From the NCBI GenBank assembly GCA_022571715.1, contig JACZXH010000003.1:1-64000 (forward strand): a stretch of DNA of 64,000 nucleotides. The letters run 5' to 3'. Below, one piece after another: positions 41,080 to 62,356 of this stretch. This DNA comes from Bacteroidota bacterium (GTDB taxonomy: Bacteria > Bacteroidota > Bacteroidia > Cytophagales > Cyclobacteriaceae). Numbering within the stretch: position 1 is the stretch's first letter; each line of letters starts with the position of its first letter. The position numbers and the translations under genes were made by a program. Below the pieces are notes generated by a model. It was not told the origin of the DNA, made no database searches, and saw nothing but the letters and a program-made list of their open reading frames with translations.

Positions 41080-41997
41080 TCAGGGGTGACTCGCCGTCAA
41101 AAATGCCGCCCCAAATACTCCTGCACTGTCTCCTAACACCGGTTTTTTTATTATGGTATGAAAATTTGTATTGAAAACATACTTTTCTGTTTCTTTTACG
41201 CCTTCTGTATATAATATCCCGAGGTTGCCTACACCACCACCAATCACAATAATATCAGGATCTAAAATATTTACAATGCAGGAAAGGCCCAAACCAAAAA
41301 AGTGAATGAGCCTTTTCATTGTTTCGATTGCAACATGGTCAGTACCTTCTTCATATCTTTCAGCTATTTCTTTGAGTTTTCGTTTACTTCCTGTACTCTG
41401 TTCATAATATTTTTCGAGGGCACTTCCCGAAATCAATGTTTCCACACAACCGGTTTTGCCACAGTAGCAACTGCCACCACTGACATCCAGAAAATTGTGG
41501 CCCCATTCACCTGCAATTCCATGCCTGCCATTAATAACGTTACCATCCACCACCACGCCTCCGCCAACGCCAGTACCAATAATTACACCAAAAACTACTT
41601 TTGCATCAGGGCAGTATTTGGGTATGGCACCCATCTTTGTCTCTGCCAGAGCAAAACAGTTGGCGTCGTTAGCAATGATTACAGGTATGTGCAAAACGTC
41701 CTCAATATCTTTTTTAAAAGGCATACCATTCAGGATTATAGAATTGCTATTTTTTAACATGCCGGTGTCCGGATCAATGGAACCCGGGGTTCCCATACCC
41801 AACCGTTCAGGCCTGATTCCTGCCTTATCCGATGTCTGTTCTATCAGTGTTTTAATCTGCGACAAAACATGGTTATATCCCTTAGTAGCTTCGGTGGGAA
41901 TTCTTTCGCGAATAATCACTCTGTGATCAGCCGCGGCATCAAGAACCACGCATTCCGCTTTGGTCCCGCCCAGATCTATACCCCATAGATATTCCAT
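41080..41997 (-). CDS. ROK-family sugar kinase
   Basis: This 305-residue protein has the ROK pattern: ATP-binding GIDLGGTKAECVVLD at the N-terminus, catalytic ANDANCFALAE, GVIIGTGVGGGVVVDG, and the zinc motif CYCGKTGCVETLISG. There is no N-terminal helix-turn-helix, so it is a kinase and not a repressor. The likely substrate is glucose, N-acetylglucosamine or a related hexose; the sequence alone does not decide. It is convergent with accC and follows a degraded membrane-protein fragment. Confidence 0.9.
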   Translation of the reverse strand: MEYLWGIDLGGTKAECVVLDAAADHRVIIRERIPTEATKGYNHVLSQIKTLIEQTSDKAGIRPERLGMGTPGSIDPDTGMLKNSNSIILNGMPFKKDIEDVLHIPVIIANDANCFALAETKMGAIPKYCPDAKVVFGVIIGTGVGGGVVVDGNVINGRHGIAGEWGHNFLDVSGGSCYCGKTGCVETLISGSALEKYYEQSTGSKRKLKEIAERYEEGTDHVAIETMKRLIHFFGLGLSCIVNILDPDIIVIGGGVGNLGILYTEGVKETEKYVFNTNFHTIIKKPVLGDSAGVFGAAFLTASHP

Positions 41998-42274: not shown

Positions 42275-45200
42275 TTATCTCCATGCAGTTTTATTCCTGA
42301 CTGTTTTGCCGGAAATGAAGTGATTTATTTTTCCCATTCCTTTCAGCCATAAGATAGAATCATTATTTCTGGCAACCATTATCAGCTCATTTCCCTGAAA
42401 ATTCAGTGATTTTATTCTTCTTGCATTTCCCTTCAATGAAAGGCCAATTTCATGATTAGAAAGTATTTGATAACCACTGGACTGCCAGGCAAGCATCGAC
42501 CCCCGATCGGCAGAGTAACGGCCTTCCTGTATGGAAGATGCATAAAAATTGCCGACAGAAAGTATATCTGCAAATCCATCATCATTTAAATCTGAGACAA
42601 GAAAATCTTGTAAAAAGCTGATTTGCATGGCTGTGGGCAGTGGCTCAAAATGAAACCCACTACCATCATTGATAAATACCCCCGACCTCAATTCATGTAT
42701 GGTCAATTTTCTGGCTCGTGAAAGACCATCACCCAAAATTTCCTTTAGGGAAGCTTCAGCGTAAGCCATATTTGTGGAAAACTTTTGACCGATTGACGGG
42801 ATCTGCTTCTCCAAGACATCTCTTGAGACAAATATGGATTCCTCACCATTTGGGTTGAACGTCATGACAGGGTCCAGTCTCCCATTTTGATCGAAATCGT
42901 CGAGATATAAATTTAATGTCCGTCCCGGTGTGGTTTTGAGTTTGGAGTTGAGACCCAGGTTTCCAATCAGCAGATCTTGATCACCATCGCCATCATAGTC
43001 CACAGATTGAATAGTCTTCCACCAACCGGAGCTATTAGGTATTCTGTTTTCTTTAAACTCTTTTCCATCCGTGGATAAAATCAATACGTCCATCCATTCC
43101 CCTACTAACACCAGATCTTTTTCACCACTCCCTTTCAGGTCAATCCATGCCGCATCATTGATCATTCCCAGTGTACCATTATGAGGGAGGTATCGGGATA
43201 CATCGATAAAGGATCTGCCTGCATCATTTTTTAATAAATAACTTTGTGGGGCGAGGCCGTAATTCCAGGGCACGACCAGGCTACCCAAAAAAAGATCTTC
43301 CCAGCCATCAGCGTCGAAATCGTGAATAGCGACACAGGACCCTGTTTGATAAACCCCCTCAAATACTCCGGGGAGTTTTGAGAATGACCCAGCACCGTCA
43401 TTTAAATACAATCGAGGTTGACGATTTGGCGAATTACCCAGAAACTCATTACCGCCACTTACCACTATCAAGTCCATATCGCCGTCATTATCAAAATCAA
43501 AGAAGGCTGCATCCACATCCTCCTGCAATTTATCCTGAATCAGGGCTGGTTGTGCAGACAGTCTAAAACCTCCCTCATATTGCAAATAAATACGGCCCTC
43601 CTGATGTTTTGCACCACCAATATAGAAATCATCCCAACCATCGCCATTTATATCCGCTACAGCTAGGGCGGGACCTTCTGTAGAGTGCATATGCGGTATT
43701 AAAGGTTCCCGATTAAACTCTATGAATGTGTTTTCCTGATGAATATAATCTACACCCAGTTCCTCATTTGAAATCGAGGTAAAAAGCGTATACCCTAAAT
43801 TTTTGTTCTTCCTGAATTTTAGCTCTTCCTTCTGAACCAACTTCATAAACTGATCGGCCTCTACATTAAAAAGGACCGTATCGCCTCCGCCAGGCCAAAT
43901 TATACGCATCGAATCAATGGATTCGGCTTTTCCAAGTCCAATATGTATTCTCGGATCAACAGAAGACTTAAAGCCACGAACGGGGAACAACTCAAAAAAC
44001 TGATATTCCTCCTGATAAAACACCTCAATCTTTGCTCCAATAGCTTTTGTATTGCTCCCTGCCCCCGCTAACTCCAATACCAGGAAATGGCGAGTGGTGT
44101 CACTGTTAATTTTGTTTTCTTTTATCACGGCCGGACCATCCAGGTTATTCAATATCAGATCAAGGTCACCGTCATTGTCCAGATCGCTATAAGCAATGCC
44201 GTTAGTAATTCGATCAGAGGCAACACCCCAATCCATCGATAAATCCTGGAAGGTCCAATCTTTATTATTTCGGAAAAAATAGTTTGAAACTTTACCACCC
44301 GGCATCTTTCTTATCAAAACCGAGTCAGGGATATCAGGATTGTTTTTTATACCCTTCCTTTCAATGAACTCCAGATAGTCCATATCGTTTGGTCGTCCTT
44401 GAATGCCATTGGAGATAAAGAGGTCTTTCCAGCCGTCGTTGTCAAAATCAGCAAACAACGGTGACCAACTCCAGTCCGAAGCATGCACTCCGGCCATCAT
44501 GGCAATATCGGAGAATGTTCCATCTCCACGATTAAGCTGAAGCGTATTACGCCTGTATTGAGCCATATATCCGTAAGAAAGCTTCATACGGAAAATTTCC
44601 TTTGGATCGTCACCTACCGTACTTTTCCTTACCACTTCATCTTCCGGTAGCATATCCAGGGTAATGATATCAACAAAACCATCATTATTGAAGTCAGCCA
44701 GATCACTTCCCATCGACGATAGACTGGTGTAGTCAGCCATGTCAGAGAAGACTTCACTGAAAGTCCCATCCTGATTATTGAGGTACAAATAATCATTCTC
44801 CATAAAGTCGTTGGAGATAAAAATATCGGTGAAGCCATCCTTATTTATATCGCTTAGACCAATTCCCAATCCGTAGCCTATTTGTGACCGGTAGATGCCG
44901 GATGATGATGAGATATCGGTAAAATAATTATCATCGTTCCTGTATATTCTGTCTCCTGCAAGTGAATCAATCTCCAGCCGCAAAGTGGCGTCACCAAACG
45001 AGCGTTGGGTGTGAACGGAATGATTGAGGAGGTAAACATCCAGATCCCCATCATTGTCCATATCAAAAAAAGCAGCTTGTGTCGAAAAACCAACAAAGTC
45101 AAGATTATATTTTGCCGCCTCTTCTCTGAAAGTCATATCACCTTGATTAATATATAGCTCATTCTTTCCAGTCACCCCTTTATAGTCTCCTAACCTGCAT

Positions 45201-45598
45201 AGATATATATCAAGTAGTCCATCTCCATTTACATCGGCCATCGACACTCCGGTTTTCCAACGTCCTGGAGACTTCACGCCTGCAGATTCAGAAATGTCCT
45301 TAAATTTCAATCCGCCTTGATTAAGAAATAAAGCGTTGTCACCCTCATTTGAAACCAGATAAATATCACTCAGACCATCATTATTGATATCTCCGACAGC
45401 CACACCTGCACCATCATAATAGTACAAGTAGTCTATGATGTTGAATTCCTCAGAGTTGCTCAACTTATTAGTGAAATCCAACCCTGTTTCTTCGACGGTC
45501 AGGTCGTTGAAAAGCTTCTCATTCGAGGAGGGTTGGCATGACAGGCTATATACGCTGATAAAAAGTAGATAAAGATATTTGTAAAAAGTTTGGTTCAT
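42275..45598 (-). CDS. FG-GAP/VCBS repeat, ASPIC-UnbV lipoprotein 1 of 3
   Basis: A 1,107-residue lipoprotein (lipobox ending Cys21). Its N-terminal half is made of FG-GAP/VCBS beta-propeller repeats with calcium-loop motifs such as DINNDGLSDIYLV and DMDNDGDLDVYLL. An ASPIC/UnbV domain lies at about 500-570 (PVRGFKSSVDPRIHIGLG, then IIWPGG). A second set of FG-GAP repeats follows to the end. No catalytic motif is seen. It is the most diverged of three tandem paralogs and the last of the run. The start is 11 bases after the preceding paralog. Calcium-dependent binding at the cell surface is likely but inferred. Confidence 0.9.
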   Translation of the reverse strand: MNQTFYKYLYLLFISVYSLSCQPSSNEKLFNDLTVEETGLDFTNKLSNSEEFNIIDYLYYYDGAGVAVGDINNDGLSDIYLVSNEGDNALFLNQGGLKFKDISESAGVKSPGRWKTGVSMADVNGDGLLDIYLCRLGDYKGVTGKNELYINQGDMTFREEAAKYNLDFVGFSTQAAFFDMDNDGDLDVYLLNHSVHTQRSFGDATLRLEIDSLAGDRIYRNDDNYFTDISSSSGIYRSQIGYGLGIGLSDINKDGFTDIFISNDFMENDYLYLNNQDGTFSEVFSDMADYTSLSSMGSDLADFNNDGFVDIITLDMLPEDEVVRKSTVGDDPKEIFRMKLSYGYMAQYRRNTLQLNRGDGTFSDIAMMAGVHASDWSWSPLFADFDNDGWKDLFISNGIQGRPNDMDYLEFIERKGIKNNPDIPDSVLIRKMPGGKVSNYFFRNNKDWTFQDLSMDWGVASDRITNGIAYSDLDNDGDLDLILNNLDGPAVIKENKINSDTTRHFLVLELAGAGSNTKAIGAKIEVFYQEEYQFFELFPVRGFKSSVDPRIHIGLGKAESIDSMRIIWPGGGDTVLFNVEADQFMKLVQKEELKFRKNKNLGYTLFTSISNEELGVDYIHQENTFIEFNREPLIPHMHSTEGPALAVADINGDGWDDFYIGGAKHQEGRIYLQYEGGFRLSAQPALIQDKLQEDVDAAFFDFDNDGDMDLIVVSGGNEFLGNSPNRQPRLYLNDGAGSFSKLPGVFEGVYQTGSCVAIHDFDADGWEDLFLGSLVVPWNYGLAPQSYLLKNDAGRSFIDVSRYLPHNGTLGMINDAAWIDLKGSGEKDLVLVGEWMDVLILSTDGKEFKENRIPNSSGWWKTIQSVDYDGDGDQDLLIGNLGLNSKLKTTPGRTLNLYLDDFDQNGRLDPVMTFNPNGEESIFVSRDVLEKQIPSIGQKFSTNMAYAEASLKEILGDGLSRARKLTIHELRSGVFINDGSGFHFEPLPTAMQISFLQDFLVSDLNDDGFADILSVGNFYASSIQEGRYSADRGSMLAWQSSGYQILSNHEIGLSLKGNARRIKSLNFQGNELIMVARNNDSILWLKGMGKINHFISGKTVRNKTAWR

Positions 45599-45609
45599 CC
45601 CTTTCCTTG

Positions 45610-48600
45610 TTACTCGAAGGTTTTGCGAAATACCTGGGCATAATCATTGTTATTAACCACGATGATTCTATCCCCGGCCAGTGTCGATACTTTACGGATC
45701 TCTCGCACCTGCCTGTCCATTTTTAATCCTGATTCAACAATTGGCATCAGTCTGAAACCACCCTTTCCATCACCCAATAATAAGGAGCCATAACTGGCGT
45801 CATACCTTCCCATTTCAGGCTTTGAATCATACATATTACCACCAAACAGAATGTCAGGAATCTCATCACCGTTATAGTCTCCAACAGAAATGGCATAGGT
45901 ATTGGAAAGTTGAACTTGCATCGGTAATTCGATTTTCGAAAAAGTGAGATCACCATTACTCATATAAACTGAAGTGGCCAGATCATAGGTTTTCAATAAA
46001 GTAGCATTCTTAAGTTCCTGTGGAGTGAATACATCGGTTATTTGCTGGTCACTATAGTCCTCGTAGCGTGGATACTTTTTGTTAATATGAGGCATTTGAC
46101 CAGCCAGGTCATGCTTGAGTGGCAATGGATATAGTCTGTCATCTTCATATTGACAAATAATTTGCTCCGTAGTACCGTTTCTATCGAAGTCTTTCACATA
46201 CATGTGCAAAGGTCTTTCCTCGGAAGCTTTGAACCGGCTATTTAAGCCGTGGTTTCCGGCAATGATATCTGGAAAACCATCTCCATTCAAATCGGCAGTT
46301 TCGACTACATTCCACCAACCATTAGAATTGGGAATAAGGCCATCAAAATATTCGAATTTACCATTTTCGTTTATGAATATCGAAATCGGCATCCATTCAC
46401 CAACAACTACCAAATCCAGATCATTATCATTATCCAGATCGGTCCACTTGGCGTCGGTGATCATGCCAATATTCTGCAACTTGGGTGCGATATCCGATGC
46501 AATATTGGTGAAGACACCGGTTCCATCATTCTCCAGGATATATCCATTATTGGGCTCGCCATAAAAAAATGGCCTCAATCGAATTCCGACAAAAAGATCG
46601 ATATCCCCATCCCCGTCGAAATCGGCAGGTTCGACTACTGAAGAGCTTTCAAATCTCTTTGCCGGAAGAGTTTGTCGGACCAGAGTGAACTCAAAATTTC
46701 CATGGCCGAAATATAGGCGATCATTCATTTCAGACGCTGATGGGTAGAACTCATTGCCTCCACTGGCAACATAAAGATCAAGGTTTCCATCGCCGTTAGC
46801 ATCAAACAATGCACAGTCGACATCCTCAGAAATTTTGGTTCTGTCAAATACCTTCACTTCAACTTTTTCAAAATTCCCCTGTATAGTCTGACCATATACC
46901 TCTCCTCGGAATCCTGCCGCTCCACCAATAAACAGGTCGTCCAAACCATCGTTATTTATGTCTCCCAGGCACAAACAAGGTCCCTGGGATGAAAGCATCT
47001 GGAAAATAAGCTTGTCACGATTAAAATCCGTAAATTTATTTTCGGTATGTTTTGCTGGAAAACTGGTAGAATCCATCTCTACAAATAAGCTCAAACCCGG
47101 TACATTATCTATTGAGTTCGTTATTATTCCATCTGACTCATGCAGGATTAACTCCTGATCTGCCGCCACATCTAGCAGTTGGGTAACTTTGCCGGAAGGC
47201 CATATAACCTCAATGCTATCCACCCTGGAAATTTTGCCAATACCAATCAGGGGTCGATGGTCAATAGTGGATTGAAAACCCCGCGTGGGCAGATGCTCAA
47301 TCATAAACTTATTGTCACCAGCAAATACTATTATCCGCGTACCAAGTGCATTGGTATTTTTCCCTTCGCCATGCAGGATAAATCTCAAATAATGGTTTTC
47401 AGGATAGAATTTCTCCGTCTGGTTTTCGAAAAGGAAAAAAGGCATATTGGTGTTATTGATGACAAGATCCAGATCCCCGTCATTGTCCAGGTCGCCATAG
47501 GCAGCACCATTTGAAAAACTCACCGCACTCAATCCAAGATCCTCGGACAAGTTTGTAAAAGTCAGGTCACCGTTATTTACATAACCATGATTAGAAACAG
47601 GCACACTTGGTATATAGCTGATAAGGGTTTCATAATCCACTCTCCCTCCAGCCGTAATTCTCGTGGAAACCTCATCCTGAGTGACAAACTGAAGGAAATC
47701 TTGATTTGTTAAATCCTGGTAAATTCCGTTAGCAACGAATATATCCTTCAATCCATCATTTTGAAAATCAAATATGAGGGCTGCCCAGCTCCAATCACTG
47801 GCTTCCACCCGTGCATATCGTCCGATTTCGCTAAACGTGTTATCCCCGTTGTTGTATTGGAGGGTATTTCGGGTAAACTGGTGCCAGTAGCCATTGATTA
47901 CACTTTGTCTATACCGCTCCCAGGAATCGAAGGTAGTTACCGTTTTAATTCTTTCATTTTCATTTGGTAGCATATCAGTAACAAATATTTCCAGATATCC
48001 GTCGTTATTAAGGTCTGCCATATCAGCTCCCATAGATGCAGCACTAACGGATTTAATTTGTTCGATGAGTTTTTCATCAAAGCCACCCTTTTGATTGTTG
48101 ATGTACAGATAATCCCGTTCAAAGAAGTCGTTAGAAATATAAATATCAAGCCAACCATCATTGTTTACATCACCTACAGTTACTCCCATACCAAATCCTA
48201 TCTCACTACCATAGATTCCGGCTTCTTTACTTACATCTATAAACCTGCCTCCTTCATTTTTAAAGAGCTTATCCCCTCCGAGAAAGTCCCTTGTTGGTCG
48301 TTGATTGGCGGTAAGATTAAAACTTCCTATGGCCTTATAGGAATTGTTGAGAAGATACATGTCGAGGTCCCCATCTTTATCATAATCAAAAAAGGAGGAA
48401 TGTATCGAAAATCCACGCTCAGCCAAACCATATTCTTCAGCCTTTTCATCAAAGGTGCCATCACCATTATTGATAAATAACTCATTTTGCTTATTGTCAC
48501 CTTTTACCTCACCTGAGTTGCATACATAAATATCGGGCCAGCCGTCACCATTTACATCGGCCACAGTTACACCGGTGCTCCATGCATGTGTACCTCCGAC

Positions 48601-48909
48601 GCCGGTAGTTTCGGTAACATCTTCAAATTCAAAATTACCCTTGTTAAGGTATAGCTTATTAGGTGCCATATTGGCCACCAAATAAATATCCAAAAGACCA
48701 TCCTTATTAAAATCTATCAATCCTACTCCACCCCCATTATAATAATTCCGATACTTGAAAATGTTAAAGTCCGGGTCAAAAATCAAGTCATTGGAAAATT
48801 CAATATTGGAATGAGCCGGATCGATGAGCTTAAACAATCTTTCCTCCTTCTTTCCGCAGGAACTAACCATCAGTGCCAACAGCAGGTATTGAAACTTTAA
48901 TTTTCTCAT
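45610..48909 (-). CDS. FG-GAP/VCBS repeat, ASPIC-UnbV lipoprotein 2 of 3
   Basis: A 1,099-residue lipoprotein (leader MRKLKFQYLLLALMVSSCG, Cys18) with the same layout as its neighbours: propeller repeats, an ASPIC/UnbV domain at about 503-573 (PTRGFQSTIDHRPLIGIG and VIWPSG), then more propeller repeats. It is closer to paralog 3 than to paralog 1; both share GRYA.VEA.DWSWAALIFD..NDGLKDIFV.NGIY. Calcium-type loops such as DYDKDGDLDMYLL recur. It lies eight bases after the small lipoprotein gene and ends 11 bases before paralog 1, so all are likely on one transcript. Function unknown. Confidence 0.9.
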   Translation of the reverse strand: MRKLKFQYLLLALMVSSCGKKEERLFKLIDPAHSNIEFSNDLIFDPDFNIFKYRNYYNGGGVGLIDFNKDGLLDIYLVANMAPNKLYLNKGNFEFEDVTETTGVGGTHAWSTGVTVADVNGDGWPDIYVCNSGEVKGDNKQNELFINNGDGTFDEKAEEYGLAERGFSIHSSFFDYDKDGDLDMYLLNNSYKAIGSFNLTANQRPTRDFLGGDKLFKNEGGRFIDVSKEAGIYGSEIGFGMGVTVGDVNNDGWLDIYISNDFFERDYLYINNQKGGFDEKLIEQIKSVSAASMGADMADLNNDGYLEIFVTDMLPNENERIKTVTTFDSWERYRQSVINGYWHQFTRNTLQYNNGDNTFSEIGRYARVEASDWSWAALIFDFQNDGLKDIFVANGIYQDLTNQDFLQFVTQDEVSTRITAGGRVDYETLISYIPSVPVSNHGYVNNGDLTFTNLSEDLGLSAVSFSNGAAYGDLDNDGDLDLVINNTNMPFFLFENQTEKFYPENHYLRFILHGEGKNTNALGTRIIVFAGDNKFMIEHLPTRGFQSTIDHRPLIGIGKISRVDSIEVIWPSGKVTQLLDVAADQELILHESDGIITNSIDNVPGLSLFVEMDSTSFPAKHTENKFTDFNRDKLIFQMLSSQGPCLCLGDINNDGLDDLFIGGAAGFRGEVYGQTIQGNFEKVEVKVFDRTKISEDVDCALFDANGDGNLDLYVASGGNEFYPSASEMNDRLYFGHGNFEFTLVRQTLPAKRFESSSVVEPADFDGDGDIDLFVGIRLRPFFYGEPNNGYILENDGTGVFTNIASDIAPKLQNIGMITDAKWTDLDNDNDLDLVVVGEWMPISIFINENGKFEYFDGLIPNSNGWWNVVETADLNGDGFPDIIAGNHGLNSRFKASEERPLHMYVKDFDRNGTTEQIICQYEDDRLYPLPLKHDLAGQMPHINKKYPRYEDYSDQQITDVFTPQELKNATLLKTYDLATSVYMSNGDLTFSKIELPMQVQLSNTYAISVGDYNGDEIPDILFGGNMYDSKPEMGRYDASYGSLLLGDGKGGFRLMPIVESGLKMDRQVREIRKVSTLAGDRIIVVNNNDYAQVFRKTFE

Positions 48910-48917
48910 CGCCGGAA

Positions 48918-49496
48918 TTAAGGATTTTTGAAATAGAATAGATCAGAATATAATGCCACCACAATTCTATCATTATTTATGAAAATGTCGATCATTCTGT
49001 TTCCATCTATTTTGTAGAGATGTTTTTTGCCGTCCTTCACCTGTGTAAAAGGCTCGTTACCGCCGTACCATTCCATGAGAATTGCAGTGAGCATCTCAAA
49101 TAATTTGTCTGACTGTAAATGCTTATTCCATGGAGCCCATCCATAATAATAAAAGCTAGTATTGTACCTGTGTATAATCTTTCCTTCTTGCATATCCGGA
49201 TAAAAGTTGAAGGCTATTGGGTTATCAAGACTATCTTTGAAAAAATACTGCACCGACATATTTTCAGGCCCCTCTTTGACAATTCCCTGTTTGTTTAATT
49301 TCCAGCAATGATCGTAGAACTCCTGTAATTCCATTCCCATGTAAACTCCAAGAAACAGCGAATCATATCTTACTCCTCTTGCCAATTCCTTTTCAATTGC
49401 TGAATTCAATTTGTCTGCTGATTCGCATCCTGAAATGGCAAAAAGTGTCATACTGATCAATAAAATCGACCAATTACTTCTCTCCATCATACTCAA
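48918..49496 (-). CDS. Small unknown lipoprotein within the FG-GAP run
   Basis: A 192-residue lipoprotein (leader ending ISGC, Cys24). The mature part begins with a charged helix (ADKLNSAIEKELARGVRYDS), then GVYMGMELQEFYDHCWKLNK, an aromatic-rich central region (YNTSFYYYGWAPWNKHL) and a beta-rich end. I do not recognise the family. Its start overlaps the end of FG-GAP paralog 3 by 23 bases and it ends eight bases before paralog 2, so it is co-expressed with both. It may be a dedicated partner of these lipoproteins. ATG at 49490 or 49487 would also serve. Confidence 0.75.
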   Translation of the reverse strand: MSMMERSNWSILLISMTLFAISGCESADKLNSAIEKELARGVRYDSLFLGVYMGMELQEFYDHCWKLNKQGIVKEGPENMSVQYFFKDSLDNPIAFNFYPDMQEGKIIHRYNTSFYYYGWAPWNKHLQSDKLFEMLTAILMEWYGGNEPFTQVKDGKKHLYKIDGNRMIDIFINNDRIVVALYSDLFYFKNP

Positions 49497-52400
49497 TCAA
49501 ATAAAATTCCATATTATTTCTTGTAAATAACACAATCTTTTTCTTATCAATAATAATCTCTTCAATGTCACGAATATCACCATCAATTCTAATTCCACTC
49601 TTTATGGCAGGAACAAATTTAAAATCACCATTTTCCTGTCCCTGGAAAAGGGCTCCAAAACCGGCTTGATAAGTCCCCACCTCTGGTTTTGATTCAGAAA
49701 AATTACCACCCAAAATAATGTCCATATAGCCATCCCCGTTAAAGTCATCCATATAAATGGCGTAGGTTGGCGATAATTGGGCATGGATCGGCAATTCATG
49801 GAAAGTCAAAATCCCACCATTATTCATATAGATACCAGTAGCCAGGTTGTATGCCGAAAGCGTATGATCTTCGTTTCGTGGCTCCTGGGGGAAAACATCA
49901 TCGGTTGTGGCCCATTTGTAATCATTAAATCTTGGGTATCGTTGTCTTATTGCTGGTAATTGCATGGATAGATCCTTCAACTGTACAAACGGATACCACT
50001 CGTCGCCACTATTCATCGAGATTATCTGTTCGAAGGTACCATTGTTATCGAAATCATTCACCAGAAGTCTTATGGGTGCTTCCATTGACGCCATAAAGCG
50101 AGAATTCAGGCCATGGTTGCCTACAATCAGTTCATCTTTCCCATCATTATTAATATCAGCTGCCTTAATAACGTTATACCAACCATTTGAATTTTCTAAT
50201 TCCCATTGGTGGCTGACATCGTTTAACCGGCCATTTTTAATAGAAAATACGGTTATTGGCATCCAGCGGCCAACTACTACCAACTCCGGGCTATCATCAT
50301 CATTTAAATCTGCCAGGGTGGCATCCGTCACCATCCCAATCCGATTTAAAGCGGGTGCCTTTTGATCTGTTACATTCTTATAGATACCAAACCCATTGTT
50401 CTCCAGTAAATAAGAATTAGCGGGGATTCCATAATAAAAAGGAACCGATCGTCCTCCAATAAATAAGTCCAGGTCTCCATCATTGTCCATGTCAAAAGGA
50501 ACAACCACACTTGTCGACTCAAAGCCCTTGTCAGGTAATCTTTGTTCGGATTTATCAAATTTTCCTTTTCCGTTGCCAAAATACAATCGGTCGTTTAACC
50601 AAACGGAAAATGAACTAAACTCACTGCTACCTGATGTAACATAAAGATCGAGATTGCCATCCCCATTAGCATCGAAAAATTCGCAGTCCAGATCTTCACT
50701 TTGGTTATCCATTTCAAAACTTTTACTAGAAGAACGAAAAGTTCCCCCTTCTGCCTGTATGAAAAGTTTTCCTGATTGGCCAATGGCTCCTCCCACATAG
50801 AAATCATCCATCCCATCATTGTTGATATCTCCTTTGCAGACACAAGGGCCTTCTGTTGAATTCATATGAAACAAAAGACGATTCGTATTAAAATCGACAT
50901 AATCGTTTTCAACATGCCGAAATGCCAGGGAATCATTTGTATAATGATTAAAAAGTTGAGGACCAGGTTTTGCAACTTCTGATTTGACCAATTGACCATC
51001 AGCTTCATTTAATTCCAAGAGTTGATTTATCCCTACATTAAACAAAGTAGTTATCCTGTCATTTGGCCAAATAACAATGAGGCTATCGATTACGTCATTC
51101 TCACCCAGGCCAAATACCATTTTGTAATCAACAGTAGATTCAAAACCCCGCATTGGGTTTTGTGCCTGGTAAATGATCTCATCACCGATGTACAGTCGAA
51201 TTTTTGTACCAATAGCCATGGTATTTGCACCCTGCCCTTTTAGCTTCATTGCAAGGTAATTTCGTTCCGGCAGAACTTGTCTCGACCGATTTTCGTAAAT
51301 CGTTGAGTGCATATTCACATTATTCACAACAATATCCAAATCTCCATCATTATCCAGATCACCATAAGCTGAGCCGCTCGAAAAAGTAGGCTCACCCATA
51401 CCCCAGACATCGGCTTTATTTGTAAAAGTTAAATTCCCGTTGTTTTTGAATATATAATTAGGAATAGGTTCCGATGGCATCATATCGATCATATATTTGA
51501 TCGCATTCTTATTTGTTTGAATAATACCTCGGACCCTGGCAGGATCAGCCATGAAGCTTAAGTAATCCAGGTCAAGGAGGTCCTTGTAAATACCATTGGA
51601 AACAAAAATGTCTTTTAGTCCATCATTGTCCATATCAAAAATTAATGCTGCCCAACTCCAGTCCGTAGCTTCGACTCCCGCGTATCTGCCGATCTCACTG
51701 AAAGTACCGTCGCCATTATTGAGCTGCAGTACATTACGTCCGAACTGGTTAAAATAGCCTTTACTTTGGGCACGCTTTTGTTCAATCCAGGTTTCAAAAA
51801 ATGCCTTTGTTACCAGCCGGTCCCTCCTTTCAGGCAACATTTCCGTAACGAAATACTCGGGGTATCCATCATTGTTTATATCAGCCAAATCTGCTCCCAT
51901 GGAACCCATTGAGATCTCCTTTACATAATCCTCCAGCTGGTCTTTAAAGGTACCGTCCTGCTGATTGATGTATAAATAATCCTTCTCGAAAAAATCGTTG
52001 GAGATATAAATATCAGGCCAGTTATCGCCATTTATATCACCGACCATGGCACCCAGACCAAATCCAATTTCACTGGAATATATGCCTGACGCCAGGGTGA
52101 CATCATTGAAGTAACCGTTATCATTCCTGAATAATTTATTGCCCCCAAGAGTATCCGGCTGCAGTCGCTGGTCCTTTACCATTTCGAATGCCCCGATTGA
52201 TTTGATTGAGTTGTTTAGGAGATAACAATCAAGATCACCATCCTTATCGTAATCAAAAAAAACCGCATGAACTGATAACCCTATGTTATCCAGACCATAC
52301 TCTTTGGCCATTTCGGTAAATGTAAGGTCTCCATTATTGATAAAGAGTTCATTATATCTTTTTTCACCACCGGGAGGACCCGATTTGCAAACATATATGT

Positions 52401-52785
52401 CGAGGAATCCATCAGCATTGATATCTACCATACTTACACCTGTACTCCAGACATCATTACTTTCAAGGTTTGAACTAATAGTTATGTCCTCGAATTTCAA
52501 ATTACCTTTATTCAAATAAAGTTTATTGGAGACCATGTTCCCACAAAAAAATATGTCTGCAAGCCCGTCATTGTTAATATCGCCAATGGCTACACCACCT
52601 CCGTTATAAAAATTTTTAAATGTATAGGGATTCAGTTGTTCGGAATATTCAAGTGAATTTATAAAATCAATACCCGAACTCTCTGATGAAAGAGGCACGA
52701 ATAATTCAACCTCATTTGCTGGATCTGTACAAGATGCAAAAAAATTAAATCCTAACACACAAATGGTCAAGAATACATCCCTCAT
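49474..52785 (-). CDS. FG-GAP/VCBS repeat, ASPIC-UnbV lipoprotein 3 of 3
   Basis: A lipoprotein of about 1,103 residues from the ATG at 52785 (MRDVFLTICVLGFNFFASC, Cys19). A longer frame from 52851 exists but its extra codons run through a perfect terminator stem, and the shorter start gives the same length and leader type as the two paralogs. The layout is FG-GAP repeats, an ASPIC/UnbV domain at about 508-573 (PMRGFESTVDYKMVFGLG and VIWPND), then FG-GAP repeats. It is the first of the three paralogs after SusCD. Expression may depend on read-through of the terminator between susD and this gene, unless a separate promoter exists. Confidence 0.9.
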   Translation of the reverse strand: MRDVFLTICVLGFNFFASCTDPANEVELFVPLSSESSGIDFINSLEYSEQLNPYTFKNFYNGGGVAIGDINNDGLADIFFCGNMVSNKLYLNKGNLKFEDITISSNLESNDVWSTGVSMVDINADGFLDIYVCKSGPPGGEKRYNELFINNGDLTFTEMAKEYGLDNIGLSVHAVFFDYDKDGDLDCYLLNNSIKSIGAFEMVKDQRLQPDTLGGNKLFRNDNGYFNDVTLASGIYSSEIGFGLGAMVGDINGDNWPDIYISNDFFEKDYLYINQQDGTFKDQLEDYVKEISMGSMGADLADINNDGYPEYFVTEMLPERRDRLVTKAFFETWIEQKRAQSKGYFNQFGRNVLQLNNGDGTFSEIGRYAGVEATDWSWAALIFDMDNDGLKDIFVSNGIYKDLLDLDYLSFMADPARVRGIIQTNKNAIKYMIDMMPSEPIPNYIFKNNGNLTFTNKADVWGMGEPTFSSGSAYGDLDNDGDLDIVVNNVNMHSTIYENRSRQVLPERNYLAMKLKGQGANTMAIGTKIRLYIGDEIIYQAQNPMRGFESTVDYKMVFGLGENDVIDSLIVIWPNDRITTLFNVGINQLLELNEADGQLVKSEVAKPGPQLFNHYTNDSLAFRHVENDYVDFNTNRLLFHMNSTEGPCVCKGDINNDGMDDFYVGGAIGQSGKLFIQAEGGTFRSSSKSFEMDNQSEDLDCEFFDANGDGNLDLYVTSGSSEFSSFSVWLNDRLYFGNGKGKFDKSEQRLPDKGFESTSVVVPFDMDNDGDLDLFIGGRSVPFYYGIPANSYLLENNGFGIYKNVTDQKAPALNRIGMVTDATLADLNDDDSPELVVVGRWMPITVFSIKNGRLNDVSHQWELENSNGWYNVIKAADINNDGKDELIVGNHGLNSRFMASMEAPIRLLVNDFDNNGTFEQIISMNSGDEWYPFVQLKDLSMQLPAIRQRYPRFNDYKWATTDDVFPQEPRNEDHTLSAYNLATGIYMNNGGILTFHELPIHAQLSPTYAIYMDDFNGDGYMDIILGGNFSESKPEVGTYQAGFGALFQGQENGDFKFVPAIKSGIRIDGDIRDIEEIIIDKKKIVLFTRNNMEFYLIEYDGEK

Positions 52786-52825
52786 AGCCAGCAGTAATAT
52801 ACAGGTGCAATCATAGACTAATGCC

Positions 52826-52859
52826 AATAAAAAAGCAAGTGACAGAATCACTTGCTTTT
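52826..52859 (-). terminator. Intrinsic terminator between susD and the FG-GAP genes
   Basis: On the reverse strand AAAAGCAAGTGA and TCACTTGCTTTT pair over 12 perfect bases (52859-52848 with 52842-52831) around a five-base loop, followed by a short T-run. It begins 27 bases after the susD stop and ends upstream of the FG-GAP start at 52785. It would set a high SusCD to FG-GAP expression ratio. Confidence 0.8.
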
Positions 52860-52885
52860 CTATATTAAAAGTTGATTAACTTATT

Positions 52886-54529
52886 CTAAAACCCAGGGTT
52901 CTGCTTCAATGCAGAACTCGCATCAAGTTGTACCTGGGGAATTGGGAATATTAAGAATTTCTCTGAAGAAACATTTTTCTCCCACCATGCTTCTCCCCAC
53001 TTACCAAATCTGATCTGATCCTGCCTTCGGGTCATTTCTGCAAACATTTCACGACCACGCTCATCAAACAAGTTATCTGCTGTGAGAGATGCAAAGGGAT
53101 CCACACCGGCACGAGCCCTTATTTGATTTACAAGATCCAGGGCCATTCCATCGCCAGGGTTCATTCTCCAAAGTGCCTCAGCTTTTGTAAGCATGATATC
53201 AGCCAGACGGAAAATAACAAAATCATTTGATGCATCTGGAGTACCACCTATTTCATACTGATACTTACCAATTCTGACACCACCTTGTCTCCAGCCATTA
53301 GGATGGACCGTGTTGTTTTGAGGAGTAAAATTAAGGCGGGTTCCATCCGGATCCGGATCCGCTGCATTTTCTTCTGTTTCAAAGGCAGGATCTTCTGTAG
53401 GAGTTCCGTCAGCATTAAACTGAGGACCTACAAGGAAGTTAGAAAGTCGTGAATCCAGTGTTCCGATATCATTTTTTACTTGGTCATTTGCTGGATCAAA
53501 ATTTGCCAGTCCAGTCCAAACCGGCCCCTGTGGTCCTGGGTTCGTAACAGGATCTACATAAGAGTTATAGAATTCCTCCACAACCGCGTATCCGTTCCAG
53601 GGCTGGAAGGTAAATTTAAAAGTGCCCTGACTCGCATAGTGCAAAGTCATAGGAGCCCATATAAACCCACCCGCAAATACCTTGTCATAAGGGATTACAA
53701 AGATATTTTCAGTTGAACCAGAGTTCTCTATTGCAAAGATATCCTTGTAGCTATTATCCAGCGCGAAGCCAAAGCCCATAGTTGCGTCAGCTGCAGCTAT
53801 AACGTCACTCCATCTGGCAGTACCTGTAAATACTTCCGCGTTAAGGTAAAGCTTACTTTTCAACGCGTAGGCAGCCGCCTGGTTCATTCTTCCATAGGCG
53901 CCACCCCCAGTGGAAGCATTGAGAAGTGGAATGATCTCGTTCAATTCACTTTCAATAAAGTTGAATACTTCACGTCGACCGGTATCAAAGTCAGAATTAT
54001 TTGCTGGAGGCTCGGTATCCGTAAAATCAATGGACAAAGGCACATTACCAAATGCATCCAATGCCCAGTAATACCAAAGTGCTCTGACTGCCCTTAACTC
54101 TGCAATAAAGGCTGCAGCGTCTTCATTACCTGCTGCCTCCAATTCTTCAAATTGGAATATCAGTCGGTTGGTGGTACCGATACCCCCATAAAGTACGCCC
54201 CATGCATTGTTAAAAAATCCATTATCAGGAGTATATTCGTGTCGATGAATGTCGATCAATACACCACCATCATACCAATCACCACCTTTAGTGGTAACGA
54301 CCATTTCATCACTGGCCAATTCGCTGACGGACCAAACATTTGCATGGCCTCCAATCGGTGCTAACGAGGAATATGCTTGCCCTAATGCCGCAATAAATTC
54401 CTCTTCTGTCTGGAAAAAATTGTCAGCAGTAACCTCGCTGAACAACTCCTCCTCCAAATCCGTACATGCTGGGACAACGAACAGCATCCCTAATGCGAAT
54501 ACAGAAAATTTCTTGAGTATATTTTTCAT
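52886..54529 (-). CDS. SusD/RagB-family outer-membrane lipoprotein
   Basis: SusD-like proteins are the substrate-capturing lids of SusCD importers. The 547-residue protein has a lipoprotein leader (LFVVPACTDLEEELF) and the family pattern ADNFFQTEEEFIAALGQAYSSL, IAELRAVRALWYYWALDAFGNVPL, AAYALKSKLYLNAEVFTG, FRLADIMLTKAEALWRM and DERGREMFAEMTRRQDQIRFG. The TPR-like helical fold should bind glycan or peptide ligands. It lies 21 bases downstream of susC. The partner genes do not reveal the ligand. Confidence 0.97.
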   Translation of the reverse strand: MKNILKKFSVFALGMLFVVPACTDLEEELFSEVTADNFFQTEEEFIAALGQAYSSLAPIGGHANVWSVSELASDEMVVTTKGGDWYDGGVLIDIHRHEYTPDNGFFNNAWGVLYGGIGTTNRLIFQFEELEAAGNEDAAAFIAELRAVRALWYYWALDAFGNVPLSIDFTDTEPPANNSDFDTGRREVFNFIESELNEIIPLLNASTGGGAYGRMNQAAAYALKSKLYLNAEVFTGTARWSDVIAAADATMGFGFALDNSYKDIFAIENSGSTENIFVIPYDKVFAGGFIWAPMTLHYASQGTFKFTFQPWNGYAVVEEFYNSYVDPVTNPGPQGPVWTGLANFDPANDQVKNDIGTLDSRLSNFLVGPQFNADGTPTEDPAFETEENAADPDPDGTRLNFTPQNNTVHPNGWRQGGVRIGKYQYEIGGTPDASNDFVIFRLADIMLTKAEALWRMNPGDGMALDLVNQIRARAGVDPFASLTADNLFDERGREMFAEMTRRQDQIRFGKWGEAWWEKNVSSEKFLIFPIPQVQLDASSALKQNPGF

Positions 54530-54550
54530 TTTTTAAATTGTTTATATAAA

Positions 54551-57532
54551 TTAAAATCCGAGAGATAAACCAATTGTATATATCTTCGAAGTGAAATATG
54601 TATTTCTTCTTTCAACACCCGGTGCCAATGAATCATCAGGGTCACCAAAGTTTTCTCCAGTATCAACATATCTTACTTCGGGATCGATCCCAGTGTAATT
54701 TGTTATTGTAAATAAATTCTGGCCTGCAAAATATAGTCTAATATTACTAAACGACTGACTGTTGGACATGTCGAAGTTGTAGCCTATAGATGCGTTATCC
54801 AACTTTAAGAAGCTGGCATTCTCGACATGAGAACTGTTCACAACCGCCTTGGTGATGGCCGGATCAAAAGCATCCGTATTGACTATGTTCCAGCTACCAA
54901 CAGTAGTTGACTCCAGGTTTTCATAGAATCCTCTGTAACTGTTAAGTAAGTCATGCCCGAAAGCACCTCTGAAGAACAGGTTCAGATCCCAACCTCCACC
55001 AAAAGAGAAGGAGTTATACCATCCTATGGTTAAATCAGGCAAACCGTTACCGATTACAGTTCTGTCATCATCGCAATTACAGAATGTACCATCACCGTCG
55101 AGGTCTTCAAACTGAGGAGTTCCATCAGCGTTTACACCAATCTTAATAGGGCCCCAAAGATCACCAAGAGGCTCACCTTCTTTTACTCTTACAGTTTCAG
55201 TATCGTTCTGTCCCGGAGACCCGAAGTTGGCCCTGTATAGCACTCCACCTTCTCCGAAGGAAAGATCACCCGAAGTCAAACTTTCAATAGTTGTGTTAAA
55301 AGTCGAAAAGTTCAGTCCGGTCGTGTACGTCATATTTGGATTGTTGATTGCACTCCATTCAACCGCAAATTCAAAACCACTGCTTTTCAACTCCCCGATA
55401 TTAACATCTGTAGTCCTGAATAAATTTGGAGGAATAGGTACGTTTACCGGAAGGATCATGTCTGTAATTGTCCGAACATAGTAGTCAAGAGTACCACTAA
55501 GTCTACCATCCATCATTACAAAGTCCAATCCGACATCCACTTCATCCTTTGTTTCCCATGCCAGATCCGGATTAGCATTACTTACAGGCCCGTAACTGGG
55601 AACGTATGCGCCATCAAAAAAGAAATTACCCGAAGGTCCAAATCTTTGAAGTGAAATATAAGATGACCCCGGAATTGCTCCTGTTCGACCATAACTCACT
55701 CTCAATTTTAAATCATCAAATCCACCAATGCTGGCCAGATTAGTTATGTTAACACCCCCACTAACTGCCGGGAAAAGCCCCCATTTATTATTCTCACCAA
55801 ATCGGGAGGATCCTTCCTGACGAGCACTTGCTGACAAGAACCACACATTGTTAAAGTTCAAGTTAACTCTTCCGAAATAGGCTATTAACCGGTGAGAATT
55901 TGCAAAACTAAATACACTACCAAGACCATTATCAAAATCTTGAGCAGCAGACATGTTGTGATAAGTGAATGCATCAGTCAGGAATTGGCCTCCAGCCATT
56001 CCAAATCCCTCGGCAAAGAAATCCTGGAAAGAATATCCTACTAATACGGCAATAGTTGTGTTACCGGTACTCCCATCCCAATTCAAGGTGGATTCAAATA
56101 GTTCATTCGTACGTTGCACAGTTGATACCTCTGCATTTCCGCTGTTAGCGCTACCACTTCCAAATTTGCCCGTTGAGGGGAAAAACTGGCCTCTCAATTC
56201 ATTTTCATGTTGTTGTGAATAAGAAAGTCCGAATCTCAAACCATCAATAAGATCTATGAAGTCGTATTCAAATCGTAATTGTCCAACAGTTCTGATATCA
56301 GTTCCTTCATTTATACTTTGCTCGGCAATAGATAGCGGATTCCAATAATCAAAAACATCTCTTTCCGCATATCCACCAATATCAGTCAGACCAGTAGTTC
56401 CGTCGAAAAAAACGGGCAATGTGGGATTAGATAATATCGCATATCTAAAGACATCTTTGAATCCAAACTGGGCATCTTTCGTAGTTGTGACCAAATTTAA
56501 TATGAATGTAGCTTTATCATTTAACCCTTTCTGAGACAGATTCAGTCGTCCGTTAATCTGAGTGAAACCGGAATTAATGGCCATACCCCGAACATCCCGG
56601 TAATTCACAGAGGCTCGGAAAGTGGTACTACTTGTTCCGCCGGACATGGAAATATTATGAATTTGCGAAATTCCCGTCTGAGTTACCTCATCAAGCCAGT
56701 CGGTTTCAGACCCCAGGTCAACGGCCCCAGGCTGCGATTTGTACTCAGCAGCGGTCATAAAGCTCATGGTACGATCCACATTATCGAAGGATACCGAGCC
56801 ATTGTAATCCACTATTGTCCTCCCTGCTTTACCTGTTTTGGTTGTAATCAGGATCACCCCGCTGGAACCCCGGGTTCCGTAAATCGCGGCTGCAGAACCA
56901 TCCTTCAAGATATCCATAGATGCGATGTCGGCAGGATCCACTGAGCTAAGCGAAGCGCCAATTATACCATCAATCACTATGAGTGGTTCCTGATTGGCAC
57001 CAAAAGTAGAAACTCCCCGAAGACGAATGATGTAATCATCATTGGGGTCTCCACCGGGTTTGGTAATGGTTAATCCAGCCACCTTACCTTGTATAAGCTG
57101 TGCAGGATTATTGACCATACCCCTGTTAAAATCTTCTTCCTTGATACTTGCAATGGCACTGGTTATCTCTTTCTTCTCTTGTGTACCATATCCCGTAACA
57201 ACAATCTCAGAGAGAGTTGTGATGTCAACTGCCAGGACTATATCAATAACCGATTGCGACCCAATAGTCACTTCCTGAGTTACATATCCAATGAAAGAAA
57301 ACACCAGAACAGCATTATCTGGTGCTGTTACTGTGAACTTACCTTCAAAATCGGTTACGGTACCTGACGTTGTTCCCTTTATTAAAATGTTCACACCCGG
57401 CAAACCCTCGCCATCATCAGCGGAAGTTATCCGTCCTGAAACCGTTTTTTCCTGTGCAACAGCCTGAAGCGACCAAGCCATAGCAAGCGGAATTAACAGA
57501 ATCCGAATCAATTTTCTGTAGTAGTTTTTCAT
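54551..57532 (-). CDS. SusC/RagA-family TonB-dependent outer-membrane transporter
   Basis: This 993-residue protein is the outer-membrane channel of a SusCD import pair. The order is a signal peptide (to about residue 27, ending QAVAQ), a carboxypeptidase-D-like regulatory domain (VSGRITSADDGEGLPGVNIL), the SusC signature LSEIVVTGYGTQEKKEITSA, a plug domain (RLRGVSTFGANQEPLIVIDG) and a large beta-barrel ending with an aromatic-rich strand (FTSKIYTIGLSLGF). A near-consensus promoter and a palindrome lie directly upstream. It is the first gene of the accessory run reaching to 42.3 kb. No sigma/anti-sigma pair is adjacent. Confidence 0.97.
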   Translation of the reverse strand: MKNYYRKLIRILLIPLAMAWSLQAVAQEKTVSGRITSADDGEGLPGVNILIKGTTSGTVTDFEGKFTVTAPDNAVLVFSFIGYVTQEVTIGSQSVIDIVLAVDITTLSEIVVTGYGTQEKKEITSAIASIKEEDFNRGMVNNPAQLIQGKVAGLTITKPGGDPNDDYIIRLRGVSTFGANQEPLIVIDGIIGASLSSVDPADIASMDILKDGSAAAIYGTRGSSGVILITTKTGKAGRTIVDYNGSVSFDNVDRTMSFMTAAEYKSQPGAVDLGSETDWLDEVTQTGISQIHNISMSGGTSSTTFRASVNYRDVRGMAINSGFTQINGRLNLSQKGLNDKATFILNLVTTTKDAQFGFKDVFRYAILSNPTLPVFFDGTTGLTDIGGYAERDVFDYWNPLSIAEQSINEGTDIRTVGQLRFEYDFIDLIDGLRFGLSYSQQHENELRGQFFPSTGKFGSGSANSGNAEVSTVQRTNELFESTLNWDGSTGNTTIAVLVGYSFQDFFAEGFGMAGGQFLTDAFTYHNMSAAQDFDNGLGSVFSFANSHRLIAYFGRVNLNFNNVWFLSASARQEGSSRFGENNKWGLFPAVSGGVNITNLASIGGFDDLKLRVSYGRTGAIPGSSYISLQRFGPSGNFFFDGAYVPSYGPVSNANPDLAWETKDEVDVGLDFVMMDGRLSGTLDYYVRTITDMILPVNVPIPPNLFRTTDVNIGELKSSGFEFAVEWSAINNPNMTYTTGLNFSTFNTTIESLTSGDLSFGEGGVLYRANFGSPGQNDTETVRVKEGEPLGDLWGPIKIGVNADGTPQFEDLDGDGTFCNCDDDRTVIGNGLPDLTIGWYNSFSFGGGWDLNLFFRGAFGHDLLNSYRGFYENLESTTVGSWNIVNTDAFDPAITKAVVNSSHVENASFLKLDNASIGYNFDMSNSQSFSNIRLYFAGQNLFTITNYTGIDPEVRYVDTGENFGDPDDSLAPGVERRNTYFTSKIYTIGLSLGF

Positions 57533-58343: not shown

Positions 58344-59237
58344 ATGAAAAAGTATGTCATACAATTATTGATGTTTGCCCTGATTACAGGGATTGTAGCC
58401 TGTAATTCTAAAAAACAGGAAGAAGGAGCTGAATCTGATGAATTTGATGCTGCCCAGGAGCAATCTGCAAATGTTGCAAGTAGCGTAGAAAGTGTAATAT
58501 ATAATATTCCGCCTCCGGCTGAAATTCCATGGCTTCTTGAAACTACAGGTGCTGAATTCAATGAGAGTTTAATAAATCCACATACTGAAGTGGATAAGTA
58601 TATGACCACTTTCGATGTCGCAGCAATGAATCTGGGTGTGTATGCCGCAGACCTCGGGTATCTCAGCTCATATGAAAAAACCCAGGGAGCTTTAAACTAT
58701 CTAAACGCAATGAAGAAACTGGCTGATTTCATAGGGGCAACGACTGCATATGACGTTACCATGCTCCAAAGGTTTGAACAAAATCTCGGCTCAAGAGATT
58801 CACTTGAGCATATCATTAATCAAGGTATTGAAGCCGCCGACCAGTTATTGAAAGATGATGACCGGTTACAGCTTGCAGCACTATTAACCATTGGTAGTTT
58901 TATTGAAGGACTTTACATATCAACACAACTTATCGAACGTTATCCGGAAACCTTGCTCTCAGAAGAAGCCCGTTTTACCATACTGACACCATTGATTCGT
59001 GTAGTATTTGATCAGCGCAATTCTCTGAATGACCTGCAGAAGTTAGCTAACACAGTTACACAAGAAGGAAAAATAGCTGAAGTAACCAACGAACTTGAGG
59101 AACTAAAGGACATCTATGCCAGCCTGAATATTGAAGAAAAACTTGCAGAGAATAGGGGCAACGAATTATTGAATGATGAAACACTCAACAAAATCGGCGA
59201 AAAAGTGGCCCAAATAAGAAATGGCATTGTAGAATAA
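58344..59237 (+). CDS. Hypothetical lipoprotein, helical
   Basis: A 297-residue lipoprotein (leader MKKYVIQLLMFALITGIVAC, Cys20), followed by an acidic linker rich in Glu, Ser and Asp. The rest is predicted mostly helical, with segments such as AMNLGVYAADLGYLSSYEKT and LAALLTIGSFIEGLYISTQL. I recall comparable uncharacterised lipoproteins in Bacteroidota, without function. The final region is coiled-coil-like (EVTNELEELKDIYASLNIEE). An intrinsic terminator follows 27 bases after the stop, so it is mostly transcribed apart from the ABC gene downstream. Confidence 0.75.
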   Translation: MKKYVIQLLMFALITGIVACNSKKQEEGAESDEFDAAQEQSANVASSVESVIYNIPPPAEIPWLLETTGAEFNESLINPHTEVDKYMTTFDVAAMNLGVYAADLGYLSSYEKTQGALNYLNAMKKLADFIGATTAYDVTMLQRFEQNLGSRDSLEHIINQGIEAADQLLKDDDRLQLAALLTIGSFIEGLYISTQLIERYPETLLSEEARFTILTPLIRVVFDQRNSLNDLQKLANTVTQEGKIAEVTNELEELKDIYASLNIEEKLAENRGNELLNDETLNKIGEKVAQIRNGIVE

Positions 59238-59263
59238 GCATTATCATGTAATTCCTTTAAATT

Positions 59264-59296
59264 GGGGTTGGAAATGTATTTTCCAATCCCTTTTTT
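59264..59296 (+). terminator. Intrinsic terminator
   Basis: GGGGTTGGAAA (59264-59274) pairs with TTTCCAATCCC (59280-59290) over 11 positions with one G-T wobble around a five-base loop. Six Ts follow. It stands between the lipoprotein gene and the ABC transporter gene. Confidence 0.85.
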
Positions 59297-59317
59297 ATAG
59301 CTGATTAAAATTAATCC

Positions 59318-62300: not shown

Positions 62301-62356
62301 ATGCGACACTTTATTTCGACATACTTCGCAAAATCGTTAACTGGAAGCGTACCTGA
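59318..62356 (+). CDS. ABC transporter, TerB-like/ATPase/ABC2-permease fusion
   Basis: A 1,012-residue fusion. Residues 1-115 are helical and TerB-like (two repeats, the first LLKAILDLFILIIKEDNISE, each with acidic EDNIS/ADNIIT motifs). Residues about 145-240 are beta-rich. The ABCG-type ATPase at about 245-480 has Walker A GASGAGKST, Q-loop PQDDLLIED, signature SGGQRKR and Walker B VLFVDEPTSGL. An ABC2-type membrane domain begins near 570, and a soluble loop of nearly 200 residues precedes the last membrane helix. The layout of one ATPase and one permease per chain suggests a dimeric half-transporter exporter. The substrate is unknown. Confidence 0.88.
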   Translation: MSESLLKAILDLFILIIKEDNISESERDKVMEFLNQHLSQKNVQMYLEYFDKMGVEVIARDATDTKELQELLLLCKKINVELTKKQKTVLLKELIELILADNIITQKEDDLVRAIAKAIHIDESEINELKIFIAGRSPGDMKGEKFIVLIDNSDILSSDVNFQIREGLDGCICFIHVESSDSYFLKYFGSAELLLNNIILIPGQIKVFPAGSAIRGQRMEPVYYSDIVSVFLKNPTENPISFEASNIYFKFPNGNLGLRDINISEKSGRLVGLMGASGAGKSTLLNVLNGVEIPTEGIVRINGIDIHREKEKTKGIIGFVPQDDLLIEDLTVYQNLYYAGKLCFKDLSEDELDKLVNKTLLNLGLTETKYLKVGSPLEKTISGGQRKRLNIGLELLREPGVLFVDEPTSGLSSRDSENIMDLLKELSFKGKLIFVVIHQPSSDIFKLFDRLIILDVGGYQIFYGNPVESVVYFKELINLINKDESQCELCGNVNPEQIFNIIETRVVDEYGRITKDRKIPPEQWNRKFVERQQLEKIEVVDRKPPSSLNIPGKFIQFLVFLKRDFLSKVSNRQYMIINFAEAPLLAFLLAFIVRYYSGDMAISAGYMFSKNENIPSYIFMSIIVALFMGLTVSAEEIFKDRKILKREQFLNLSKGSYLMSKVVLLLILSAIQTILFVLVGNSILEIKGMFLPYWAILFSCSFFANMLGLNISSAFNSAVTIYILIPILLIPQLLLSGVVVKFDKLNPRLSNEAVVPLVGDLMVSRWAMEATMVAQFKDNKFEKILFDTDKKITDARYKKLYYLPKLYSKLDYCFNHLGNSDTSDNSNMAYNLGVLRNEIKKELKIIGNNKFPDVDTLYPKTFNADVFETTQKFLDALKTYYTSKYNKAVAEKDAILRKISGDPEMKRQFKILRETYSNESVSNIVKNIAEQYRIVERDGRLIRKLSPVYMTPVDPANMFDFRTQFYVAEKYFAGKFIPTPVFNIVFIWLMSIILYATLYFDILRKIVNWKRT

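Follow-up and report, generated by a model that had tools for sequence, protein, structure and literature searches.

We assign a rough probability of 55% to the reading that a Bacteroidota operon, in which a SusCD importer is followed by propeller lipoproteins predicted to bind calcium, is a saccharide-uptake operon in which those lipoproteins act as surface accessory proteins. SusCD pairs are the main nutrient gates of Bacteroidota, and the glycosidases next to them are the usual reason for interpreting them as glycan loci. The locus described here represents a widespread class of SusCD loci with other conserved partners: three propeller lipoproteins, each distinct from the others, and a small lipoprotein whose family has no name. 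Positional orthology points to a defined set of subunits, and a porter-kinase tail in the genus suggests a first candidate substrate class.

The locus lies in a 64,000-nucleotide stretch, hereafter the window (G000:C135:1-64000), of a 3.47-Mb genome assembled in 136 contigs and 95% complete. By ORF coordinates, the order on the minus strand is SusC, SusD, UnbV-A, the small lipoprotein, UnbV-B and UnbV-C, tightly spaced, with two further sugar-related features downstream:

54551..57532, minus strand: SusC/RagA-type TonB-dependent outer-membrane importer, 993 aa
52886..54529, minus strand: SusD/RagB lipoprotein, 547 aa (PF07980; lipobox by eye)
49474..52785, minus strand: UnbV-A, lipoprotein of two FG-GAP propellers flanking a UnbV_ASPIC domain, 1103 aa from ATG
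48918..49496, minus strand: small lipoprotein, unnamed family, 192 aa from TTG (190 aa from ATG at 49490)
45610..48909, minus strand: UnbV-B, layout as UnbV-A, 1099 aa
42275..45598, minus strand: UnbV-C, layout as UnbV-A, 1107 aa
42013..42186, minus strand: decayed remnant of a sugar-porter MFS transporter gene, recognized by similarity to the transporter of a sister species (G001)
41080..41997, minus strand: ROK-family sugar kinase, 305 aa (PF00480, E 2.8e-69)

The initial annotation had described SusCD followed by three UnbV genes on one strand, and the ORFs lie where it put them, with the FG-GAP and ASPIC domains confirmed by Pfam. It had placed the small lipoprotein after the array, when in fact the gene lies inside it, between UnbV-A and UnbV-B. 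The reported gaps of 8-11 bases or overlaps hold from UnbV-A onward but not upstream, where SusC and SusD are separated by 21 bases and SusD and the UnbV-A ATG by 100 bases; an alternative GTG start in the ORF list would extend UnbV-A to 1125 aa. For SusC, the TIGR04056 score is 681 bits (cut-off 368); a Pfam search shows plug and barrel domains (PF07715, PF00593) as well as an N-terminal domain, and the nearest solved structures are those of SusC homologs, among them 8aa4_A (E 1.2e-91). SusD scores 93.7 bits against PF07980 (cut-off 23.1; E 2.1e-26), also exceeds the cut-off for PF14322, and matches the SusD structures 3jys and 3ck7. By eye, all five operon proteins other than SusC have a lipobox, the cysteine of which is invariant in alignments of the UnbV proteins and of the small lipoprotein (33 rows). 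Pfam detected no carbohydrate-active enzyme, and no glycosidase, among the operon proteins. The operon may extend beyond UnbV-C into the ROK kinase gene on the same strand, or the transcript may end within the 277-base gap ahead of that gene; scans for promoters and terminators near the operon found nothing clearly exceeding chance. Divergent from SusC, at 58344-62356 on the plus strand, are an ORF for a 297-aa lipoprotein-like protein matching no Pfam family and then one for a 1012-aa ABC transporter-TerB fusion. The genome contains seven UnbV_ASPIC matches and one PF07980 SusD; the SusCD pair is nonetheless not unique, as a second SusC/SusD-like pair (PF12771) is found on contig G000:C28.

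All three UnbV proteins exceed the cut-offs for PF13517, PF01839 and PF07593, with FG-GAP repeats in both halves and a single UnbV_ASPIC domain (E 2.5e-19, 1.7e-17 and 3e-16). The shared layout and the range of 1,099-1,107 residues previously given agree with our measurements. The ASPIC domain, previously put at about residues 505-573, begins some 15 residues later, at 519-584 in UnbV-C, 521-587 in UnbV-B and 546-612 in the 1125-aa form of UnbV-A. The copies had been interpreted as a triplication. Their pairwise identity is 39-50%, indicating that the duplication is old, and positional orthologs are present in other genomes, so a recent local triplication can be set aside. UnbV-C is 90% identical to its positional counterpart in a sister species.

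Placing 258 UnbV proteins on a FastTree phylogeny (branches judged by FastTree support values, position labels taken from loci bearing the small lipoprotein) showed that the A, B and C labels require 4 changes, compared to a possible minimum of 2. One branch contains 37 of the 38 A genes and 2 others, and another contains 42 of the 45 B genes and 3 others. The UnbV-A lineage occurs almost only ahead of the small lipoprotein. These relationships identify UnbV-A and UnbV-B as ancient subunits whose positional orthologs recur in several classes, within cassettes that include the small lipoprotein. Genes in the third position are split and mixed on the tree, and the best branch holds 15 of 31, which does not support a single clean lineage.

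The predicted structure of UnbV-B (pLDDT 91.3, pTM 0.91) suggests a CRTAC1-like half joined to a second propeller. Residues 22-593 align to murine CRTAC1 (PDB 9etn) with Z 37 and rmsd 2.5 (460 residues). Among solved structures CRTAC1 ranks first, and a profile match to it has E 8.9e-24. Residues 605-1097 form a second beta-propeller in the model, for which the top alignment is LGI1 (Z 31.9). UnbV-A and UnbV-C probably have the same architecture, given their 40-50% identity. The calcium-type motif D-x-[DNS]-x-[DNS]-G occurs 12 times in UnbV-A, 11 times in UnbV-B and 13 times in UnbV-C, consistent with calcium binding by these proteins.

The small lipoprotein has no Pfam match at E 0.01 and no NCBIfam match over any cut-off. 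Its predicted model is good (pLDDT 89), and comparison with solved structures gave no Foldseek match at E 0.001 and no sequence match. The best VIA-align score is a weak Z of 6.6, and the leading candidates, Rhs-immunity, DUF4309 and DcrB folds at Z 6-6.6, are too weak to name. An independent search of 59 relatives recovered the gene at 24 places in 18 genomes, the window being one of these places. Among the 23 others, 18 are beside UnbV, 4 follow SusCD with no UnbV in view (a contig end is close in 2 of the 4), and the last has neither neighbour. In a phylum-wide draw of 395 genomes, 27 carry the small lipoprotein, and UnbV adjoins it in 20 of 20 loci examined, including 2 in which the small ORF itself is missing from the pruned ORF set; about half of these 20 have the complete SusC-SusD-UnbV-lipoprotein order. 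In total, UnbV adjoins 38 of the 43 independently recovered copies. Two loci of a single contig (L145 and L146, G027:C7) have SusC, SusD and the small lipoprotein with no UnbV, and the second of these continues with a GH127 gene.

The pairing of UnbV arrays with SusCD, on which the initial annotation staked its proposal, recurs among relatives. We sampled 40 stretches, comprising the best long-frame UnbV match of most ranked genomes and some further matches, together with four others, a sample biased toward high-scoring matches and in which several genomes are represented repeatedly. SusD lies within three genes upstream in 31 of these 44 arrays, is absent in 11, and 2 are too close to an edge, giving 31 of 42 decidable arrays. 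The rarity of SusCD that the initial annotation had named as grounds for refutation is therefore not seen in this sample. The short gaps also recur, with medians of 18 bases between SusC and SusD, 95 between SusD and UnbV, -4 between UnbV and the small lipoprotein, 0 between the small lipoprotein and UnbV, and 0 between adjacent UnbV genes. The cassette ranges over Cytophagia, Flavobacteriia, Saprospiria, Bacteroidia-labelled metagenome-assembled genomes and one Balneolota genome. Bearers of the order SusC-SusD-UnbV-lipoprotein-UnbV-UnbV include Algoriphagus or Belliella strains (L055, L064, L087, L094). The description of a new system in the window was therefore too narrow, as the arrangement is found across the phylum and beyond it in that one genome. 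SusCD is not obligatory, since one family (f56; L176, L177 and L178) combines the small lipoprotein with a shorter UnbV in an array without a SusCD pair. In these three loci an UnbV of 611-633 aa is followed by the small lipoprotein and then by two long UnbV proteins; this arrangement is possibly an older or a reduced form. One UnbV open frame elsewhere (L127, G035:C2) is about 2200 aa, double the usual length.

The sister species G001 did not lose SusCD, as might be supposed from its array: SusC (81% identical) and SusD are on a separate contig that ends within an UnbV-A gene. Directly upstream of UnbV-A in the array contig (L013 13960-15308) are two ORFs that we take to be an interrupted IS110-type transposase, and this element may be the reason for the contig break between SusD and UnbV-A. 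The SusCD contig (L160, G001:C100) has nucleotide identity to the window of approximately 68-89% over SusC and SusD and 98-100% over its right end inside UnbV-A. Its UnbV-A protein piece is 99% identical to that of the window, compared to 79% for the other G001 UnbV-A copy over the same piece. Either recent recombination or a chimeric contig could account for this jump.

Evidence for a substrate class comes from the genes downstream of the array. In G001 the array is followed on one strand by an MFS gene, whose product scores 365 bits against the sugar-porter model (cut-off 237.8), and then by a ROK kinase gene. In a second sister species (G002), an UnbV gene, an MFS gene (91% identical to that of G001) and a ROK kinase gene occur in close succession. 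The UnbV-sugar porter-ROK order is therefore intact in two sister species, compared to an intact ROK kinase and a porter remnant in the window. The remnant is 60% identical to residues 300-358 of the intact G001 transporter (tblastn E 5e-16; nucleotide match 80%). Decay of the symporter gene leaves the window's species with an interrupted route to the kinase. The closest NCBIfam match of the window's ROK kinase is fructokinase, under the cut-off.

Carbohydrate enzymes are also found near the arrays of cousins. Genes following the cassettes of other genera include trehalase and an MFS transporter (L102), three GH127 genes (L082), GH32 (L122), GH65 (L050), a 3-keto-disaccharide hydrolase (L144), a sulfatase (L140) and a glycerol-phosphate-oxidase-like gene (L044); these were chosen as the next genes in line and serve as examples, not as a count. 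An enrichment of glycosidases on the operon side was considered and dropped, as comparison of 115 operon-side neighbours with 115 other neighbours of the same loci gave no clear excess: sugar genes occur on both sides, FecR and sigma genes on the operon side, and LacI on the opposite side. The earlier statement that no gene is present to name the substrate was too strong in view of the porter-kinase tail and the carbohydrate enzymes near the arrays of cousins.

Because genes for a sugar transporter and a sugar kinase follow the array in the genus, we consider it probable that the array is uncharacterized surface equipment for sugar uptake. By family membership, the ligand would be imported by SusC with its SusD lid on TonB energy. 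UnbV-A, UnbV-B and UnbV-C would stand on the cell surface, held by lipid anchors, and together with the small lipoprotein could constitute a layer of accessory proteins, whether to catch the ligand, to position it or to make the importer stiffer. Gene order in the genus suggests that the imported sugar would then pass through the sugar-porter symporter, after which the ROK kinase would phosphorylate it. The initial annotation had proposed a capture apparatus beside the importer, and a capture or accessory role is the most economical interpretation of UnbV arrays that accompany SusCD. Both the contact of the UnbV proteins and small lipoprotein with SusCD and the saccharide nature of the ligand are inferred. 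Several observations weigh against the saccharide-uptake reading: the lack of a glycosidase in the operon, the decayed porter gene, the gap ahead of the ROK kinase gene, the variation in array-side enzymes between cousins with no clear glycosidase excess, and the family f56 arrays without a SusCD pair. The core of UnbV-A, small lipoprotein and UnbV-B is kept where the enzymes differ, which suggests that it probably has a general job and that specificity resides elsewhere. A bolder proposal, which we advance tentatively and hold to be clearly less likely than the saccharide-uptake reading, is that UnbV-A and UnbV-B assemble with the small lipoprotein, and with UnbV-C, into a single large extracellular machine of ancient origin. 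This machine would dock on SusCD importers with many different specificities throughout Bacteroidota, as an undescribed general accessory complex that is often coupled to a vanadium haloperoxidase.

The UnbV proteins might instead be adhesins or matrix proteins that hold particles, cells or surfaces through calcium-dependent propellers, with SusCD feeding on the catch. Integrin alpha chains share FG-GAP repeats, a match seen here at the sequence level, FG-GAP is listed among adhesion domains in a marine Bacteroidetes genome paper (PMC2668756), and the arrays without SusCD noted above fit such a function. We nevertheless regard it as unlikely, given that tight packing with SusCD and a conserved order of paralogs around the small lipoprotein suggest subunits of one apparatus. 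If the UnbV proteins were enzymes, with either propeller or both cleaving or isomerizing the ligand at the surface, the glycosidase-free operon of the window would be accounted for. The second propeller of UnbV-B aligns to that of aldos-2-ulose dehydratase (Z 28.6), and H621 and E623 are invariant and lie outside the repeat calcium motifs, but non-catalytic propellers score equally or higher, with LGI1 first, and ordinary glycosidases are found beside the array in cousins. Catalysis by the propellers thus seems quite improbable.

The coupling to a haloperoxidase arises from sequence clustering, which identified a lipoprotein of about 448 aa near the array in 33 of the loci sampled. Its best solved match is the Zobellia vanadium iodoperoxidase (4cit/4usz; E 6e-162, full length), and in 33 aligned members six of seven active-site positions are invariant, with a single exception among the 33 at the seventh. 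Of 57 strong relatives, at least 29 have a listed UnbV gene no more than 6.5 kb away. These observations raise the prospect that the array serves halide or oxidant chemistry, capturing or handling halogenated or oxidized organic matter, the more so as the haloperoxidase gene is next in line in many cousins. In Arenibacter strain C-21, which has at least five such haloperoxidase genes, iodine uptake requires calcium (PMC5064120). Still, we found no haloperoxidase gene in the window's genome, where the whole array is kept, and other arrays also lack one. The enzyme was accordingly rejected as part of the window's system, and we give this function of the array little credence.

A literature search on UnbV, UnbV with SusD, and FG-GAP with SusD, with most subscription journals outside its coverage, returned no description of the arrangement. 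Several known systems resemble parts of it. In the SusCD utilisomes of gut Bacteroidetes (PMC7618045), a SusC barrel and SusD lid are likewise joined by co-encoded surface lipoproteins; those are glycan-binding proteins and glycosidases, whereas in the window their place is taken by CRTAC1-like double propellers together with the small lipoprotein. The SusCDE system of Flavobacterium johnsoniae (Fjoh_0403-0405) also adds to SusCD an extra surface lipoprotein with an unrelated structure and no assigned function; the text of the paper does not mention FG-GAP (PMC12611786). The Zobellia vanadium iodoperoxidase has a close relative after many related arrays but not in the window's genome. CRTAC1 is similar to the first half of UnbV-B; the bacterial proteins are longer by a second propeller and have a predicted lipid anchor. 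Finally, like a polysaccharide utilisation locus (PUL), the locus combines SusCD with nearby sugar genes, but in an operon that has no carbohydrate-active enzyme of its own.
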